Origin: Halalkalirubrum salinum
GTDB lineage: Archaea; Halobacteriota; Halobacteria; Halobacteriales; Haloferacaceae
Length of the DNA: 55,842 nucleotides
Assembly (NCBI RefSeq): GCF_005543295.1
Contig: NZ_SRSG01000029.1
Location: forward strand, 1 to 55,842
Reading direction: 5' to 3'
Shown piece by piece: positions 4,201 through 29,481 of the stretch. Under the pieces are notes generated by a model. The model worked only from the letters and a program-made list of their open reading frames with translations, did not search any database and had not been told where the DNA came from. How positions within the stretch are numbered: position 1 is the stretch's first letter; the number at the start of each line of letters is the position of its first letter. The position numbers were made by a program, and so were the translations under genes.

Positions 4201-6413
4201 TCGACGCGCTCTTTGCCGGTCTGTGGTCCAGTCGGCGCTGCAACGGCTCCCGATCCATCTGTTTCAATTCGGGCGATCCCTGTCGTGTCTTCGGCCAGTT
4301 CGCGGAGATCGAGTGTCTCCGCGGAATCGATCGGCTCGTCGTACGCCCACCCCTGCGGCAGTTCGTAGTGTCCGTCCGCATCGAGGTCGCCTGCCTCGAT
4401 AAATTCCCACCCTTTCCCGGTGCTCGCGTCCTCGTCGAGGTCCCGTACGAGCATCCGATGATTCGGCGTCACACGGAAGTCGACCCCATCCGTATCGAGG
4501 TCGACGAGGTCACCGCGATACTCCGGATACGAGTGGGTCTCGGTTACGGGCTTGACTTGCATCGTCATCGTGTCCGGATCGAGCGAGTACACGTGGTCTC
4601 CGACGTCCAGTTCGGTGATCGATCGGACACCCTCCGGCGTCAGGACGTCCGTGTCCGGGGTGAAGCAGTTCATGATGACCTTCACCGCGCCCTGCTGTCT
4701 GTCGTACTGGACGTACGGCTCCGATCCAGGATCGTACTCGTTCCGCAGTGATTTTTTCTCTTCGCGTTCTGTCAAGAGTTCGTCGACCATCTCACGCATG
4801 ATCCCGTCAGGCTCTTTGCGGAACCGGGTCCCATTCGGTGCACGATAGGTCTCGCCATCAAAATCCTCCTCGACCTTCGTCTCCGGGCCCGCGTTAATTG
4901 TTACCATGCACATTGGGTAGAGGCTCTTTAAATCTAGTACCGTAACGTTCTCGCGAACGCCGGTGATCGGATCGAAGACCGCCCCACCCTCGAAGTCTTC
5001 AGTTTCTTGTTGGCCCTTCGTCGGCAGGGCAAACTTCCCGTGGGCTTTGTGCAGGACGTACACGTCGACTGCGTCCCCCGGCGTCGGCGCGTCTTCGAGC
5101 TTACAGCCGACGAACTTTCGCACCTCGTCCCAGAAGGGGATGATCGCCTGCTTGCGATCGATCTCGACACACAACTCGACGTCCCGAACATTGTACTCGA
5201 GCAGCCGGGTCGGGTCGTTCTCCCACAAATCGCCGATGTCTCCGGAGTACCGCTCCTTGCCGACGTCGAGTTCTAACTCGCCGACTGCATCGAGTCGGTA
5301 GGACTCCAACTCGGTGAACTGGGTCCGTTTGTACGCGTACAGCAGATCGAAGACGACCCGCCCTTTGATGTCGGGACCGCCCCATCCCGATCGCCAGACC
5401 TCATCAACGCGGGAGAGTCGCTCGATCGAGAGATCCACGTCGGTTCTCGGATTCAACAGCTCCATCCGATCGAGCAGGTACGGCGCGTCGAAGTCCTCAA
5501 AATTCCACCCGGACAGGAGATCAGGGTCGGTCTGCTCAATGTACTCAAGGAATCCCTCGAGCATTGCTTCCTCGCTGTCGAACGATCGAATCTCGATGTC
5601 AGTGTCTTCGCGAAGCGGCTCGTACTCCGACAGGTCGTCGGGTGAGCGTCCGTCGCCCACGGGTGCTTCGTACAGCCAGCCGATGTAGGTGTCGTCGAGA
5701 GAGTCGTGACTCGTGAGACAGACGATCGGCTCCTCACCGTCCTCGGGGAAGCCGTTTCGATCGTCGACCTCGATATCGAACATGTTGACCCGAATATCGG
5801 CGTCAACCTCGGCCGGTTCGGCCTCCTCGTGGGGAATCTGAATCGGCCCATCATCTTCGAGGCGACGTGCTGGGACTCGAATACCACCGCCGAGGCCCTT
5901 GTCGATCAAAAACCGATTTGGAAAGAGTATGTCGGCTTCGTAGTGCTCAAAATCGTCGCGTATCTGTCCGACATCTCGTGGTGTTCGCGCGATGATCTTG
6001 GTGAGTGCCTCGCCGCGGATACTCTCGAACCGATCGCCGTTTTCGTCGGTGTCACGGGCGTCAAGAATGACATCGTATTCCTCGACGGGGTCAGTGTCGA
6101 GGGTCTCTGTCGGCGTGTAAAAATACGGCTCGAAGCCGAGCACACGGACGTGTTCGGCCGTGCCCTCGGCCGTCCGCCCAAAGACGTGGATCACTGGATA
6201 TTCGCTTCGACCCGATCCTTCGATCGTGTAGTCGACTTGCGTGATCGCCAGTTCCACGTATCCCGTCGCGTCGGGAAAGCGGGCGTCTTCGACGTTGACC
6301 ACGTCGCTCACGTGGCCTTCTCCGTTTCCAGCGACCGTCGCGGCTTCGGCGACATCGGCTGCCGACTCCGGATCACTCGCAGAACCGAACTGACCGAGAT
6401 CCGACTGCGTCAT
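1275..6413 (-). CDS. polB: Family B replicative DNA polymerase with two inteins
   Basis: A 1712-residue precursor; removing the two inteins leaves a 908-residue polymerase, normal for haloarchaeal PolB. The start is MTQSDLGQFG, with a T-rich box 23-30 bases upstream. The exonuclease domain shows FDIEVD, GWNFEDFDAPYLLDR and YNVRDVELC. The polymerase domain shows motif A DLKSLYP (Asp494), motif B KVIMN/SLYG and motif C YGD/TDS; the slashes mark intein insertions, both in active-site motifs. The GRKKRYAG element follows motif C. The C-terminus QTGLGSFM resembles a PCNA-binding PIP box. The enzyme can only be active after both inteins splice. It acts in chromosomal replication together with PCNA. 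Confidence 0.96.
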   Translation of the reverse strand: MTQSDLGQFGSASDPESAADVAEAATVAGNGEGHVSDVVNVEDARFPDATGYVELAITQVDYTIEGSGRSEYPVIHVFGRTAEGTAEHVRVLGFEPYFYTPTETLDTDPVEEYDVILDARDTDENGDRFESIRGEALTKIIARTPRDVGQIRDDFEHYEADILFPNRFLIDKGLGGGIRVPARRLEDDGPIQIPHEEAEPAEVDADIRVNMFDIEVDDRNGFPEDGEEPIVCLTSHDSLDDTYIGWLYEAPVGDGRSPDDLSEYEPLREDTDIEIRSFDSEEAMLEGFLEYIEQTDPDLLSGWNFEDFDAPYLLDRMELLNPRTDVDLSIERLSRVDEVWRSGWGGPDIKGRVVFDLLYAYKRTQFTELESYRLDAVGELELDVGKERYSGDIGDLWENDPTRLLEYNVRDVELCVEIDRKQAIIPFWDEVRKFVGCKLEDAPTPGDAVDVYVLHKAHGKFALPTKGQQETEDFEGGAVFDPITGVRENVTVLDLKSLYPMCMVTINAGPETKVEEDFDGETYRAPNGTRFRKEPDGIMREMVDELLTEREEKKSLRNEYDPGSEPYVQYDRQQGAVKVIMNCFTPDTDVLTPEGVRSITELDVGDHVYSLDPDTMTMQVKPVTETHSYPEYRGDLVDLDTDGVDFRVTPNHRMLVRDLDEDASTGKGWEFIEAGDLDADGHYELPQGWAYDEPIDSAETLDLRELAEDTTGIARIETDGSGAVAAPTGPQTGKERVDRVNHSDRVNHVDRAAFVKLLGWYITGGELTPTETDPYQITISVDDRSNLDAVEAVVDELVSNYHRDDGAVHFSSERLYRVLERCCGSSEKKTIPDVVFESSKDVRRAFLDVLVAGGGQYEDGGRSFTYTTESQDLRDDVLRLCLTLGHTGQYTREEGVWHVRSDQAQKPTVRMDRDSSIATATDGVYCVTVADNHTLLAGRNGTFQFVGQSLYGVTGWDRFRLYDKEGAAAVTATGREVINFTETAANELDYDVAYGDSVTGDRPVVVRDPDGMMQVKPIRELFAMATAEPAESDLVVTADGGVVSETQRGKNRRSLPGWEALSLADNGTPEWQPISQVIRHQTDTPVVRLQHKFGESETTTDHSYIVEEDGRYVESSPGDVTEPLRIPDVPAVETIETIDVYEVLSGYTRAYADGRSVGTANAETKVNRVHADDDRVWFGHAHHGALDTKVTVQRYIDLNSEDGKALVRLLAAYVTEGSASTIETTDTKFGVSISESRRSWLQQLQSDYQRLFEGAKTSIISSDSKTKRTVEWNDGEASTTYNDETLKLQMMNELSAVFFREFAGQTSRGKRVPNCVYHLPEELQALFITTAVEGDGSRKFPRYSDEYCERNFDFETTSRELAAGLSMLLTQRGQKHSLKYRSEKKSYTIRTCDFYRSGRDPVVEQIEHDGYVYDLSVETNQNFVDGVGGIVLHNTDSVMLELGRDVEKSKAIDQSFDIEEYINGRYDDFAHEELNAEVHRFQIEFEKLYRRFFQAGRKKRYAGHIIWKEGKDVDDIDITGFEYKRSDIAQITKEVQLNVIETIVTGEDIEADLEEVKTYLNEIITGFLNGERSLEEIGIPGGIGKRLSNYDTDTAQVRGAKYANHMLGTNFDRGSKPKRLYLKKVHPDFWQRMENERGLNPQTDLLYGEFKRNPDVICFEYADQVPAEFEIDWEKMLEKTLKGPIERVIEALGMSWDEVKSGQEQTGLGSFM
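2112..3425 (-). other. Intein 2 of PolB (motif C site) with LAGLIDADG endonuclease
   Basis: 438 residues (997-1434 of the precursor), inserted inside the catalytic YGDTDS motif (YGD/TDS). It begins with Ser (SVTGDRPVVV) and ends GGIVLHN, followed by Thr of the extein. The endonuclease helices LLAAYVTEGS and LFITTAVEGDGS keep an acidic residue at the catalytic position, so this element may still be able to home. The terminal block is YDLSVETNQNFVDG. Compared with intein 1 it is the more complete element. Confidence 0.9.
3570..4667 (-). other. Intein 1 of PolB (motif B site), endonuclease probably inactive
   Basis: 366 residues (583-948 of the precursor), inserted between Asn and Ser of motif B (VIMN/SLYG). 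It begins CFTPDTDVLTPEG, a standard N-terminal splicing block with Cys1. It ends VADNHTLLAG...FQFVGQ, so the last two residues are Gly-Gln instead of the usual His-Asn. Two LAGLIDADG-like helices are recognisable, LLGWYITGGEL and FLDVLVAGGGQY, but the acidic residue expected before the final Gly is Gly in both. The endonuclease domain therefore looks dead, while splicing must still work for the polymerase to function. Confidence 0.9.
4170..4205. repeat. Two tandem 18-bp units inside intein 1
   Basis: GTGATTGACGCGATCGCT is followed directly by the same sequence with AC in place of CT at the end. On the coding strand this gives the repeat RVNHSDRVNHVDR just ahead of the first degenerate LAGLIDADG helix. 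Confidence 0.7.
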
Positions 6414-19282: not shown

Positions 19283-19350
19283 ATCCGTTGTAACTTGGCA
19301 ATATGACACTAAACGGATATCTACGACTATGCTAGAGAACATTTAATAAC
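19283..19350 (+). promoter_or_regulatory. Promoter region of the PASTA operon
   Basis: The gap after the cytochrome genes (19211-19379) is A/T-rich. A box CATTTAATAACC (about 19339-19350) lies 30-40 bases before the ATG at 19380. Upstream are inverted arms ATCCGTT (19283-19289) and AACGGAT (19312-19318), a possible operator. Confidence 0.4.
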
Positions 19351-19379
19351 CCATAGAGAGTTGAGACTGGAGAACACCC

Positions 19380-20033
19380 ATGGCAGACCCAGTCAACGAG
19401 ATCGTCAAAGAGATACCGTTCGCCGAGTTGGTCAGACAGTCCGCGCTTGCGATCGCTGACGGCCAGACCGCCCTCGACATTAACTCTGCACAGACCGCCC
19501 AGACACTCGCGGATATGAAGCTTGATCCAGACTCAGTCATTTTGAGTCTTATCGAGGAAACCGACGATGACGGCAACGTGACCAACGTCGAAACGGTGAC
19601 GAACGATGCACCGCTTTCACTGTTGGCGTATGGCATCACTCCGACGTTTTATGAGTTCGCTGAAACCGAGATCGATCTCCGGTTTTGGGTCCGCTGGTAC
19701 ACCCGAGAACAGAGCGGCAGCCGAAGTTCGGATTTCAGCCGCGATCTCGAGACGAAGCTCGAAACGTCGCAGCGAAAATTCGGCGGTGGCGGGGGCGTGA
19801 GTCTCTCGATCGGCCCGTTGTCGCTCGGCGGTCGTGCTGGTGGGAGTCGATCCCAAACCAACAAGCGACAACAGACGAGCCTTACCGTCAAGACTCACAC
19901 CGAGTACGACAGTCAGGTGTACGGACTGAGCGCTAACGCTGCGTGCCGACTAAATACGCGATTGGTCCCGAAGCCTGCGCCGAGTGGGGCGGTGCCAAAC
20001 GTGATCAGAGCCGAACCTGACCAGGAGGCCTGA
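19380..20033 (+). CDS. Beta-rich protein resembling DUF2589, operon gene 1
   Basis: 217 residues, no signal peptide or membrane helix. Residues 12-45 are helical (IPFAELVRQSALAIADGQ then TALD). A strand motif FYEFAETEIDLRFWV (90-104) is followed by a Ser/Gly-rich stretch (130-160, GGGGGVSLSIGPLSLGGRAG) and a further strand TSLTVKTHTEYDSQ. This order resembles bacterial DUF2589 proteins, whose function is unknown. Gene 2 repeats both the GQxALD helix and the FAxxExDL strand, and gene 3 has a similar strand. The resemblance is by eye. The start has its own TATA-like box. Confidence 0.7.
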   Translation: MADPVNEIVKEIPFAELVRQSALAIADGQTALDINSAQTAQTLADMKLDPDSVILSLIEETDDDGNVTNVETVTNDAPLSLLAYGITPTFYEFAETEIDLRFWVRWYTREQSGSRSSDFSRDLETKLETSQRKFGGGGGVSLSIGPLSLGGRAGGSRSQTNKRQQTSLTVKTHTEYDSQVYGLSANAACRLNTRLVPKPAPSGAVPNVIRAEPDQEA

Positions 20034-20042
20034 TCGGTCCCA

Positions 20043-20417
20043 ATGGATCGATGGCTTTCCCGGCCGATCCCCGAGGTGATCGAAGCGCTCGCGGTGGGCG
20101 TGGCTGAGGGGCAGGTCGCACTTGATGAACGATCGATGGCGATCGAACGAGAATACCGTGCCGCTGTCGAGGCGGGTGCGCTTCCGGCTGGCCTCGAAGC
20201 GCCGTGGTTTCGGTTTGCCGCTGCTGAGGCAGACCTTTCCGTTGAGCTGTCGCTCCACGGGCGTGAGGTGTACGACGATGCTGGAGAGGTCAGGGCCTAC
20301 CGACCCATTATTGCTGCTTCACCCCCTGGATCGCGCCGCAGTCGCGAAACGACGATCAATGCGACGAGTACGGTTCGAGTCCAGATCGCGCCTGTACCGC
20401 CCGGCGGAGAGCGCTAA
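20043..20417 (+). CDS. Shorter paralogue of gene 1 of the PASTA operon
   Basis: 124 residues. The helix RPIPEVIEALAVGVAEGQVA (residues 7-26) and the strand WFRFAAAEADLSVEL (55-69) align with the corresponding elements of the preceding protein. A C-terminal strand pair around 103-116 (ETTINATSTVRVQI) matches its last strands, but the Gly/Ser-rich insert is missing. The gene starts 9 bases after gene 1 and its stop overlaps the next start (TAATG). The two products could form hetero-oligomers; this is inference. Confidence 0.65.
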   Translation: MDRWLSRPIPEVIEALAVGVAEGQVALDERSMAIEREYRAAVEAGALPAGLEAPWFRFAAAEADLSVELSLHGREVYDDAGEVRAYRPIIAASPPGSRRSRETTINATSTVRVQIAPVPPGGER

Positions 20418-21535
20418 TGGCTTCGCGTGATCGGTCCTCCGGGCTGAAAACGGCGATCACCGCGGAGCTGCCAGCGATCAATACCGACAAACTCTCCCGA
20501 ACCGAGGAGCGCGAACTCGCTGGTATCGTTCACACCAAAGAGCGGCTTGAGACACAGTTCCGCGATCGGATCATCGAGTTAGAAGCCGAACACAGCGAGC
20601 TACAATACCGGGCCACCGCGCTCGAACGCGACAGAGATCGGCTCCGCGAACGCCTCGACCAGCTGCAAGCGGACCGCCCCGCAATCGATCCCGATCGCGT
20701 TGTCTCTGCGTTTTCCGAGCGGCTGACCGCAAGCGAGGCGCTTTCTGCGCAGGGATACGAAATTACGGACTACAGTGTCGAGCTGAAGGCGAACCTCGCC
20801 TACGAGGACGACGAACCCCGCATCCGCCTCCCAGGGCCCACTGAGGAGTTTGTGGCAGCCAATCTCAGCACAATTCGTTTCGGTGTCGAAAAGCGTGACT
20901 CCGACGATGCACTCATGTACCAACGGATTCCGGATGTTCAGGGGCGATCGATCGAGAGCGCTACCCGACTGCTCACAGAGGCTGGGTTCGCCGTTGGCGA
21001 TCGAGAGGTTATTGTGGGTGAGCCGGCGGGCCGTGTGGTCGAGCAGTTCCCCCGCCCCGGTGACGTTGCCCAACCGGGCACGGAGATCGATCTGGTCGTT
21101 AGCGAAGCCGCCGGCAGTGGAGAAGACTCCGAGGCCAGTACTACGGCCGAACATACCAAGAGCGAAGACACCAGCGAGGAGGCCGAACACACCAAGCGCG
21201 TAGATACTAACGACGAGAAAGGCGAAACGATCGATCGAGACCGCACCGATCGGCCCGACCGAACCAGCCCGACAGACGAACGGACGCAGCCGACAGACGA
21301 ACGGACGCAGCCGACAGACGAACGGACGCAGCCGACAGCCACAACACAGCCCGTGTCTGCGATCACCGGCATTGGTCCAACGTACTCCGATCGACTGGGC
21401 TCAGTCGGGATCGAGACGGTGAGTGACATCCAACGCGCCGACATCGAGACGATCGCCGACGTGGCAAGCGTCTCGAAAACCCGCGCCGAACGCTGGCGAG
21501 AGCTCGCTACAAAACTGGCCGAGGAATCCAAATGA
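20417..21535 (+). CDS. Coiled-coil, PASTA and helix-hairpin-helix protein
   Basis: 372 residues with an unusual domain order: coiled coil (24-88), a beta-rich part with YEITDYSVELKANL (114-127) echoing genes 1 and 2, a PASTA domain (170-230, IPDVQGRSIESATRLLTEAG ... GTEIDLVVSE), an acidic linker holding three TDERTQP repeats (286-307), and a C-terminal helix-hairpin-helix (313-365, ITGIGPTYSDRLGSVGIETV). PASTA domains usually sit outside the cell on kinases or penicillin-binding proteins; here there is no signal or membrane helix, so the protein should be cytoplasmic. The HhH suggests DNA or protein binding. Confidence 0.8.
   Translation: MASRDRSSGLKTAITAELPAINTDKLSRTEERELAGIVHTKERLETQFRDRIIELEAEHSELQYRATALERDRDRLRERLDQLQADRPAIDPDRVVSAFSERLTASEALSAQGYEITDYSVELKANLAYEDDEPRIRLPGPTEEFVAANLSTIRFGVEKRDSDDALMYQRIPDVQGRSIESATRLLTEAGFAVGDREVIVGEPAGRVVEQFPRPGDVAQPGTEIDLVVSEAAGSGEDSEASTTAEHTKSEDTSEEAEHTKRVDTNDEKGETIDRDRTDRPDRTSPTDERTQPTDERTQPTDERTQPTATTQPVSAITGIGPTYSDRLGSVGIETVSDIQRADIETIADVASVSKTRAERWRELATKLAEESK
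21269..21338. repeat. Three tandem 21-bp units in the PASTA gene linker
   Basis: CCGACAGACGAACGGACGCA plus G is repeated three times without mismatch (starts 21269, 21290 and 21311) with a partial fourth copy. It encodes TDERTQP repeats in the disordered linker between the PASTA and HhH domains. Confidence 0.9.
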
Positions 21536-21777
21536 GCGAGCGTGAAGGCGCTCCCACCAGAGAGACGTTTGTCCTGGAATTTGAGCCGGAGGCTTGTCCG
21601 GAAGCGATCGAACGGGTGATTCGAACGATCGAATCGGGCGGGGGATCGATCGCGCTCGTCCACGCCCGTTCGATCCTGTTTCGAGCAGACCGACCAGTCG
21701 CCGATCAACTCGGAGCGGCTCCCGGAGTCAACCACGTCGGTGCGGTACAGCTTCCTGTCACCAGTCAATCTCGGTGA
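21532..21777 (+). CDS. Small protein resembling a free inhibitor-I9 domain
   Basis: 81 residues, start overlapping the preceding stop (ATGA). The pattern strand (TFVLEFE), helix (PEAIERVIRTIESGGG), strand (SIALVHARSILFRAD), helix (RPVADQLGAAPG), strand (VNHVGAVQL) is that of the peptidase-inhibitor I9/subtilisin propeptide fold, including the GG turn and the PGV near the end. No subtilase is encoded nearby. It could be an inhibitor, a chaperone-like domain or a plain ferredoxin-like fold. Resemblance by eye only. Confidence 0.6.
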   Translation: MSEREGAPTRETFVLEFEPEACPEAIERVIRTIESGGGSIALVHARSILFRADRPVADQLGAAPGVNHVGAVQLPVTSQSR

Positions 21778-26940: not shown

Positions 26941-29481
26941 ATGAGTCGTGGTCCCGAACTGATTATCACAGAAAAGGACAACGCCGCCAGACGGATCGCC
27001 GAGATCCTCAGCGGCGATTCTGCCGATGCGGAGCGAATGAACGGCGTCAACGTCTACAAGTGGGGCGGCACGCGCTGTGTCGGCCTCTCCGGACACGTTG
27101 TCGGCGTCGATTTCCCGCCCGAGTACAACGACTGGCGCGACGTTGAGCCAGTCGAACTTATCGACGCCCCGATCGACAAACAACCCACCCGCGAGAATAT
27201 CGTCGCCGCCCTCCGCCGGCTTGCCCGCAGAGCGTCAGCGGTGACGATCGCCACCGACTACGACCGAGAGGGCGAACTAATCGGCAAAGAGGCCTACGAG
27301 CTCGTCCGAGAGGTCAACGAGGACGTCCCGATCGATCGTGTTCGCTTCTCGTCAATTACGAAACGAGAGGTCGAGGAAGCCTTTGCGAACCCCGAAGAGC
27401 TCGACTTCAATCTCGCCGCCGCGGGAGAGGCCAGACAGGTAATCGATCTGATCTGGGGGGCGGCGCTCACGCGGTTTCTCTCGCTTTCGGCCCGCCAGCT
27501 TGGAAACGATTTCATCTCTGTCGGGCGGGTGCAGGGACCGACGCTGAAGCTGATCGTCGATCGCGAGCGCGAGATCGAAGCGTTCGATCCCGAAGACTAC
27601 TGGGAGCTGTTCTGTGATCTCACGAACGACGACGGCGCGGGCTTCGAGGCGCAGTATTTCTACCTCGACGAGGACGAAAACGAGGCCGAGCGGCTGTGGG
27701 ACGGCGGTCGCGCGCACGCGGTCTACGAGGCGCTTTCGACCACTCCGGAGACGATCGTCGACGCGGTTCGCCGGCGAACGAGGACGGACAGCCCGCCGAC
27801 GCCGTTCAACACCACGCAGTTCATCCGGGCGGCCGGTTCGCTTGGCTACTCCGCCCAGCGGGCGATGAGCATCGCCGAGGACCTCTACACGGCCGGGTAC
27901 ATCACTTACCCGCGGACGGACAACACCGTCTACCCGGATGATCTTGATCCCCACAAGCTACTTGAAGCGCTCGCGGCGAGTCGGCAGTTTGGTGATGATG
28001 CTGAGTCGCTGCTCGAACAGGAGTCGATCGACCCCACCGCCGGTGACGAAGAGACGACCGACCACCCGCCGATCCATCCGACTGGCGAACTCCCCGCAGG
28101 CTCGGACCTTTCGGAGGCCGAACGCGAGGTCTACGAACTCGTGGTTCGTCGATTCTTTGCGACTGTCGCCGAGGCAGCAACCTGGGAACACCTCCGCGTG
28201 GTTGCTGTTGTCCCTGACGCAACGATCGCGACCGACGGCGGCGAGACGATCACGGACCTCTCGATGAAGGCCAACGGCAAACGGCTCGTCGAGGACGGCT
28301 ACCATGCCGTCTACCCGTACTCCAACGCGGGCGAGACGTTCGTCCCCGACGTGACCGAAGGCCAGACGCTGTCGATCGCCGACGTGCGCCTCGAAGACAA
28401 ACAGACCCAGCCGCCACGACGCTACGGCCAATCGAGGCTGATCGAGACCATGGAGGGGATGGGGATTGGCACGAAGTCAACGCGACATCACGTAATCGAG
28501 AAGCTGTATGATCGTGGCTACATCGAAAACGATCCGCCGCGGCCGACCATGCTCGCGAAGGCGGTCGTCGAGGCATCCGAGCGCTTTGCCGATCGGATCG
28601 TGAGCGAAGAGATGACCGCGCAACTGGAGGCGGATATGCAGGCGATTGCCGCGGGCGAGAAAGACTACGACGAAGTCACGAAAGAATCCCGTGAGATGCT
28701 CGAACTCGTCTTCGAGGAGCTGATGGAATCCGGCGAGGAGGTCGGCGAGCACCTCCAGAAGTCACTCAAGGCCGACAAGACGATCGGCCCGTGCCCTGAC
28801 TGCGGCGAGGATCTGCTCCTCAGAAAGAGCCGCTACGGTTCGTACTTCATTGGCTGTGACGGCTACCCAAGCTGTGAGTACACCCTGCCGCTGCCGTCGA
28901 CCGGCAAGCCGCTCATCCTCGACGAAGAATGTGAGGACCATAGCCTGCGACACGTGAAGATGCTCGCCGGCCGCAAGACGTTCACCCACGGTTGTCCGCA
29001 GTGTAAGGCTGATGAGGCTGATGAGGCCGATGACGAGGTGATTGGTGTCTGTCCGGACTGCGGGGAAGAACACGGCGGCGAGTTGGCGATCAAACAGCTC
29101 CGATCGGGCTCGCGACTCGTCGGCTGCACCCGCTATCCCGACTGTGAGTACTCGTTGCCGCTGCCGCGTCGCGGCGAGATTGAGGTGACAGACGAGCTCT
29201 GTGAGGAACACGACCTGCCCGAACTCGTGATCCACAACGGCGACGAGCCGTGGGAACTCGGCTGTCCGATCTGCAACTATCGCGAGTTTCAGGCCCGCCA
29301 GCCCGACGCCAACGAACTCGAATCGATCAAGGGAATCGGCGAAAAGACTGCCGAGAAGCTCAAAGACGCCGGAATTGACGACGTCAGTTCGCTGAAGGAG
29401 GCGGACCCGGACGATATCGCGACCTCTGTCGACGGTATTGGCCCCGACACCGTCCGCAGCTGGCAGGCCAAGGCGGACTGA
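26941..29481 (+). CDS. topA: DNA topoisomerase I (type IA)
   Basis: 846 residues. The TOPRIM domain opens with ELIITEKDNAARRIAEIL and has the acidic triad in DYDREGELIG. The active-site Tyr is in YITYPRTDN. Several C-terminal zinc ribbons follow (CPDCGEDLL...CDGYPSC, HGCPQC, CPDCGEEHGG...CTRYPDC, CPIC). The last 55 residues form a helix-hairpin-helix (ESIKGIGEKTAEKLKDAGI). It relaxes negative supercoils. A short ADEADEADD repeat sits between zinc ribbons. It is preceded by AGGTTTAGACC, a possible TATA element 30 bases upstream. Confidence 0.96.
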   Translation: MSRGPELIITEKDNAARRIAEILSGDSADAERMNGVNVYKWGGTRCVGLSGHVVGVDFPPEYNDWRDVEPVELIDAPIDKQPTRENIVAALRRLARRASAVTIATDYDREGELIGKEAYELVREVNEDVPIDRVRFSSITKREVEEAFANPEELDFNLAAAGEARQVIDLIWGAALTRFLSLSARQLGNDFISVGRVQGPTLKLIVDREREIEAFDPEDYWELFCDLTNDDGAGFEAQYFYLDEDENEAERLWDGGRAHAVYEALSTTPETIVDAVRRRTRTDSPPTPFNTTQFIRAAGSLGYSAQRAMSIAEDLYTAGYITYPRTDNTVYPDDLDPHKLLEALAASRQFGDDAESLLEQESIDPTAGDEETTDHPPIHPTGELPAGSDLSEAEREVYELVVRRFFATVAEAATWEHLRVVAVVPDATIATDGGETITDLSMKANGKRLVEDGYHAVYPYSNAGETFVPDVTEGQTLSIADVRLEDKQTQPPRRYGQSRLIETMEGMGIGTKSTRHHVIEKLYDRGYIENDPPRPTMLAKAVVEASERFADRIVSEEMTAQLEADMQAIAAGEKDYDEVTKESREMLELVFEELMESGEEVGEHLQKSLKADKTIGPCPDCGEDLLLRKSRYGSYFIGCDGYPSCEYTLPLPSTGKPLILDEECEDHSLRHVKMLAGRKTFTHGCPQCKADEADEADDEVIGVCPDCGEEHGGELAIKQLRSGSRLVGCTRYPDCEYSLPLPRRGEIEVTDELCEEHDLPELVIHNGDEPWELGCPICNYREFQARQPDANELESIKGIGEKTAEKLKDAGIDDVSSLKEADPDDIATSVDGIGPDTVRSWQAKAD

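Follow-up and report, generated by a model that had tools for sequence, protein, structure and literature searches.

A strictly linked four-gene module of haloarchaea encoding distant DUF2589 relatives and a PASTA/HhH protein, with counterparts in methanogens

In Halalkalirubrum salinum, a tight operon of four plus-strand genes, here named G1 to G4, occupies positions 19380-21777 of the window, the 55,842-nucleotide stretch of DNA that was analysed. The four genes are a strictly linked module in haloarchaea. Profile comparisons show that G1, G2 and a strand domain of G3 are paralogues sharing a single ancestral unit, and they place G1 in the DUF2589 superfamily as a distant member. We favour, with slightly better than even confidence, the view that G1-G4 make up a self-contained cytoplasmic hetero-oligomer of paralogous subunits, in which G3 would be a coiled-coil tether and G4 an accessory protein. 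Any one stated cellular task, such as a membrane-apposed scaffold, a compartment wall or a filament, is held with much less confidence.

Operon layout and linkage across genomes

G1 (19380-20033, plus strand) encodes 217 aa with an N-terminal helix (GQTALD), a strand (FYEFAETEIDL), a long Gly-rich hairpin and a C-terminal strand (RLNTRLVP), and is DUF2589-related. G2 (20043-20417, plus strand; 124 aa) is a shortened G1 paralogue, with the helix GQVALD, the strand FRFAAAEADLSVEL and the C-terminal strand STVRVQIAPVPP, and is without the long hairpin. G3 (20417-21535, plus strand; 372 aa) carries a coiled coil (residues ~40-90), a strand domain paralogous to G2 (~86-163; window 20672-20902, plus strand), one PASTA domain (170-229), an acidic linker with PTDERTQ repeats and a helix-hairpin-helix (HhH; 315-362). 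G4 (21532-21777, plus strand) is an 81-aa protein with a predicted beta-alpha-beta-beta-alpha-beta, ferredoxin-like fold of I9-like shape and a conserved VGGV/VGAV C-terminal strand. The earlier note had placed four open reading frames here, 9 bases apart or overlapping, and coordinates and junctions read accordingly: a 9-bp gap separates G1 and G2, G2 and G3 overlap by 1 bp (TAATG), and G3 and G4 by 4 bp (ATGA), a spacing usual for genes that are translationally coupled. Upstream of G1 lies the only gap of any size, with none comparable within the operon. There, a putative control region (19342-19379, plus strand), to which a promoter role was assigned by eye, holds the AT-rich, TATA-like stretch TTTAATAA ~30 bp ahead of the G1 start, followed by a short leader with GGAG. 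The operon is flanked by a cytochrome b-type gene pair on one side and a convergent MATE-type transporter gene on the other (neighbours named by eye). G1 is identical in the sister strain 'Halophilic archaeon SHRA6', the closest named relative in the collections and the only strain returned by a genome contig scan.

Separate profiles of G1, G2, the G3 strand domain and G4, each searched over the same 292 Halobacteria genomes, match exactly the same 18 genomes (7/77 genera), at one locus. Co-occurrence of the four genes, as the earlier note had anticipated, is thus borne out; scattering in relatives was looked for in these 292 genomes and none was seen. Wherever a multi-gene locus was read, its genes adjoin one another and always share a strand, in the order G1-G1-G2-G3-G4 (n = 12), G1-G2-G3-G4 (n = 11) or G2-G3-G4-G1-G1 (n = 3), with a few variants; some cassettes have no adjoining G4 (L126, L127). 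Flanking genes differ between genera and lineages and are constant within the best-sampled genus. Genes at these loci were called automatically with a simple script based on codon usage. Some of their starts are therefore approximate; the caller missed G1 of locus L043, which was found by profile search, and merged or shortened a few other starts.

The G1 profile also finds the cassette in methanogens, a label that rests on a methyl-coenzyme M reductase gene, present in 9/11 representative genomes examined. In one methanogen family, G1 matches occur in 39/111 genomes and 8/14 genera, a few of them being fragments. Such short fragments (G587:C9:117171-117419, G424:C1:3307041-3307271 and G409:C85:112-291) suggest cassette decay. 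Outside archaea, a plasmid of the betaproteobacterium Sphaerotilus sulfidivorans (L057:11643-14422) bears five consecutive 'hypothetical protein' genes resembling a bacterial copy of the module. It has a recognisable G4 upstream of two G1 genes, one of which, second of the five, is 57% identical to a haloarchaeal G1; the two genes downstream fit G2 and G3 in size and position, the last having by eye a strand domain at its C terminus and a long coiled coil, and both are too diverged for a sequence match. A tree of G1 places both bacterial proteins within the archaeal clade of two-G1 cassettes, where each sits with its respective paralogue. The window G1 clusters with G1 from three single-G1 cassettes of haloarchaea, adjacent to the methanogen clade (100/98); long branches leave exact positions unsure. 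This grouping points to two versions of the module in haloarchaea, one of which was probably acquired by a bacterium.

Patchy spread (18/292 haloarchaea; 39/111 genomes of the one methanogen family), varied sites and the copy on a bacterial plasmid would fit a mobile or defence-type cassette, anti-phage or toxin-antitoxin. However, the cassette holds no nuclease and no immunity gene, its site is stable within a genus, no relative of G1 was found in scans of viral contigs or in phage records, and the PADLOC matches, which were set aside, arise only through PASTA or coiled-coil stretches of G3. We regard this explanation as very unlikely.

Paralogous domains and DUF2589 loci

Profile-profile scores were judged against 12 column-shuffled versions and a reversed control. 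G1 and G2 score 140.7 against a null maximum of 15.6, which places the GQxALD and FAxxExDL motifs that the earlier note had seen in genes 1 and 2 beyond chance, and the similar strand that it had pointed to in gene 3 aligns with G2 (32.2 for the G3 strand domain, null maximum 13.1); a failure of these motifs to align, which the note had named as its refutation, did not occur. The direct score of G1 with the G3 domain is near background, so that the kinship link runs via G2. G4, serving as a negative control, stays at null level against every other family. The expectation that genes 1 and 2 would lead to DUF2589 (PF11655) holds for G1 (52.1 over 153 columns, null maximum 18.1, reversed 20.6) and more weakly for G2 (26.6, null maximum 13.4), and a second profile comparison gave E values of 7.9e-8 for methanogen G1 with DUF2589 and 3.9e-15 for G1 with G2. 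Single-model searches are silent on these proteins: at E<=1 Pfam contains no match for G1, G2 or G4, for which NCBIfam and PHROGs likewise gave nothing of note, and the PF11655 model, which does find other archaea, has no match in window G1, G2 or G3 or anywhere in the window's genome. Profiles of G1, DUF2589 and the G3 domain, run against PDB sequences, returned nothing credible; matches of the G1 helix to exosome subunits (PDB; also L133) are weak and were judged to be chance.

DUF2589 is spread over bacteria and archaea and has, to our knowledge, no known role. PF11655 occurs in 20/295 Halobacteriota genomes, often as tandem pairs, and a third gene adjoining these pairs scores 30.9 against G2 (null 15.9) and 33.0 against the G3 domain (null 16.0). 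These scores, at 31-33, are modest, and the three types of third gene are not all joinable to one another, T3 against T3H being at null level in profile-profile comparison. At the level of such alignments, DUF2589 loci appear to be parallel systems of the same plan, in which tandem DUF2589 genes are accompanied by a third that aligns with G2 and G3.

Several of these loci have features of their own. The haloarchaeal DUF2589 cassette at L090:6561-9394 comprises two DUF2589 genes, an HhH-bearing third gene and a 108-aa fourth gene that is conserved in L088 and L089 (YFEPLT...GLFAGVLVIDD). On one viral (phage-like) contig, a DUF2589 gene has as its neighbours genes for a DUF2586 protein, a patatin phospholipase and an M15 peptidase (L135:2407-8591), and on bacterial plasmids DUF2589 genes occur close to genes for muramidase or phage lysozyme (L136, L138). 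In L091:5071-6565, which we take to be the Archaeoglobus fulgidus DSM 4304 DUF2589 cluster, one DUF2589 is split into two open reading frames (5588-5794 and 5791-5979); the four genes AF0414-AF0417 may in truth be three, one of them frameshifted. Among open-licence papers in PubMed Central, a single one concerns DUF2589, reporting that the A. fulgidus cluster AF0414-AF0417 is up-regulated on lactate (PMC3949148). The same literature yielded none describing the G1-G4 module, none joining PASTA with haloarchaea and none relevant on PASTA with Methanosarcina or Archaeoglobus.

Variable tails, the G1 hairpin and the predicted fold of G4

The earlier note had read PASTA and HhH domains in gene 3 and expected PF03793, and Pfam agrees: PASTA (PF03793, E 6.7e-12) reaches 45.6 bits against a cut-off of 23.2 over residues 170-229, and HHH_5 (PF14520, E 3.7e-9), which has a GIGP loop, 37.4 bits against 27 over residues 315-362, both above gathering score. 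Across homologues the coiled coil and strand domain of G3 are constant, while PASTA domains number from 0 (L126) to 12 and HhH from 0 to 1. The note had seen in the combination of PASTA with HhH and a propeptide-like domain a hint of an undescribed cytoplasmic multiprotein assembly; PASTA and HhH are variable tails, absent from some homologous cassettes, and so do not form the core of the system. One methanogen cassette has upstream of it a further G3-type protein (L131:6550-10524; 1324 aa), which combines 12 PASTA domains with a very long coiled coil. The tandem PTDERTQ repeats of the window's G3 linker are at 21250-21345, and the sister genome differs in repeat content (394 aa against 372 aa for G3).

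The PASTA matches above the curated cut-off could speak for a ligand-sensing module, with PASTA binding a cell-wall ligand outside the cell, as it does in the Stk1/PknB kinases of bacteria. However, some cassettes have no PASTA at all, the archaeal hosts of the module have no peptidoglycan, and the proteins lack the signal peptide, membrane segment and kinase domain that such a receptor would have. In the window proteins the highest 19-residue Kyte-Doolittle mean is 1.27, with no membrane span or signal peptide-compatible hydrophobic segment; for G3, which the earlier note had described as free of an export signal, it is 0.59, in agreement with that description, and domain searches place no kinase or transpeptidase domain in G3. 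Ligand sensing is extremely improbable in our judgement.

A DNA- or chromosome-associated scaffold, in which the G3 HhH would bind DNA, with a rod of coiled coil and PASTA connecting it to a G1/G2 oligomer, draws on the GIGP loop of the window HHH_5, on the HHH_5 that the third gene of the haloarchaeal DUF2589 locus L090 (L090:8046-9071) bears independently, and on the position of the cassette relative to topoisomerase I, which adjoins it in one genus and lies 5 kb away in the window. Yet HhH also serves protein contacts, and it is missing from many G3 proteins (L130, L131, L125, L126, L129) and so cannot be the core function; we consider such a scaffold quite unlikely. The topoisomerase I-like gene of the window (26941-29481) has a C-terminal HhH resembling that of G3, and in genus g24 (L043, L044, L047) a homologous gene lies directly 3′ of G4; adjacency and likeness together hint at an ancestral shared site or at domain capture.

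One DUF2589 paralogue and the G1a protein of two-G1 cassettes have in common a long polar hairpin with an aromatic/glycine tip. The motif of this tip, G[WF]x(0-2)[WYF][SG], occurs in 17/46 G1, 8/11 DUF2589-A and 0/7 DUF2589-B sequences, against 1-2% in shuffles. Other hydrophobic or glycine-rich tips hold the same place elsewhere (GLAGLLFGKAK in methanogen G1; GGGGGVSLSIGPLSLGG in window-type G1). G1b, G2 and DUF2589-B are without the long hairpin, which indicates one hairpin-carrying subunit type per cassette. A single-sequence model of G1 is unreliable, with a mean pLDDT of 33.9. These tips, both the motif with its absence from DUF2589-B and the hydrophobic or Gly-rich variants, would suit the main rival to the hetero-oligomer, a membrane-permeabilising device in which G1 and one DUF2589 paralogue touch or enter the membrane by the polar beta-hairpin, like beta-pore-forming proteins, and are regulated by G2, G3 and G4. 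The nearness of DUF2589 genes to muramidase, phage lysozyme, M15 peptidase or patatin genes in bacteria and in one phage-like contig would also fit, but archaeal cassettes do not adjoin lytic genes, there is neither an export signal nor a toxin-immunity layout, and a soluble sheet assembly would be just as likely to have amphipathic strands, all of which leaves the device unlikely.

The I9-like domain that the earlier note had proposed for gene 4 survives in predicted shape and not in sequence. The single-sequence model of G4 (mean pLDDT 82) has a beta-alpha-beta-beta-alpha-beta ferredoxin-like fold, and its top structural match is the I9-family inhibitor POIA1 (Z 9.6, rmsd 3.1, 70 residues), with subtilisin propeptides frequent below it. 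However, the ferredoxin-like fold is common; the model matches the unrelated ferredoxin-like domain of DAHP synthase equally well (Z 9.5) and NikR and ribosomal S6 almost as closely (Z 7-8), and none of 18 G4 homologues matches the I9 family models of Pfam at E<=1. G4 thus seems to resemble I9 propeptides and inhibitors at the level of predicted fold only.

A candidate assembly and its relation to known systems

No enzyme domain was recognised in window G1-G4 by domain searches, and linked paralogues without enzymes commonly form a hetero-oligomer, as we infer here. In the hetero-oligomer that we favour, the domain common to G1, G2 and G3, a helix followed by amphipathic strands, would pair as subunits. 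G1 would contribute a long polar beta-hairpin with a glycine/hydrophobic tip, and this tip may contact the membrane, neighbouring subunits or cargo. G3 would be anchored in the oligomer through its strand domain and multimerise through its coiled coil, projecting a PASTA tail of adjustable length, with or without HhH, as a putative spacer and docking arm. G4 could act as a small ferredoxin-like capping, assembly or adaptor subunit. A cytoplasmic location, for which the basis is the lack of signal or membrane segments, is presumed for all four. With somewhat less than even confidence, we propose an undescribed self-assembling archaeal structure (a compartment wall, filament or membrane-apposed lattice). 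Its parts would be several paralogous DUF2589-superfamily subunits, a ferredoxin-like accessory protein and a tether made of a coiled coil with PASTA/HhH; both haloarchaea and methanogens would have it, and bacteria would have received it on at least one occasion.

This view brings four orphan genes together with DUF2589, a large domain family, as a single system open to testing. The module is strictly linked and occurs in haloarchaea and methanogens, among which are genetically tractable species, and it would give DUF2589 its first context. If the products assemble, they would constitute a new archaeal cellular structure in which PASTA modules are used without peptidoglycan. We found no characterised system to which the module belongs, and it is new in that sense, not as a demonstrated mechanism.

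Known systems share parts of it. The I9 or subtilisin propeptides, represented by POIA1, have the same order of secondary structure as the G4 model, whereas their sequences do not match G4 and the cassette holds no subtilase. Like Stk1/PknB kinases and PBP2x, G3 has PASTA above the Pfam cut-off; in those kinases and penicillin-binding proteins, however, PASTA is extracellular and membrane-anchored and accompanies a kinase or transpeptidase, whereas G3 has neither of these nor a membrane span, belongs to an archaeal context and varies in PASTA number down to none. The A. fulgidus cluster AF0414-AF0417 is a cluster of short genes of the same plan as the module, but its proteins are DUF2589 proper, with no PASTA, HhH or G4 nearby. 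DUF2589 loci in general are without a PASTA protein and without a recognisable G4, the C-terminal region of DUF2589 is unlike that of G1, and window G1, G2 and G3 fall below the Pfam model. Nevertheless, G1 aligns with DUF2589 along most of its length at profile level, DUF2589 too occurs as tandem paralogues, and the two kinds of locus have in common a third gene, whose helix and strands can be aligned with G2 and G3 (in Archaeoglobus-type clusters as well), and the aromatic/glycine tip of the hairpin.
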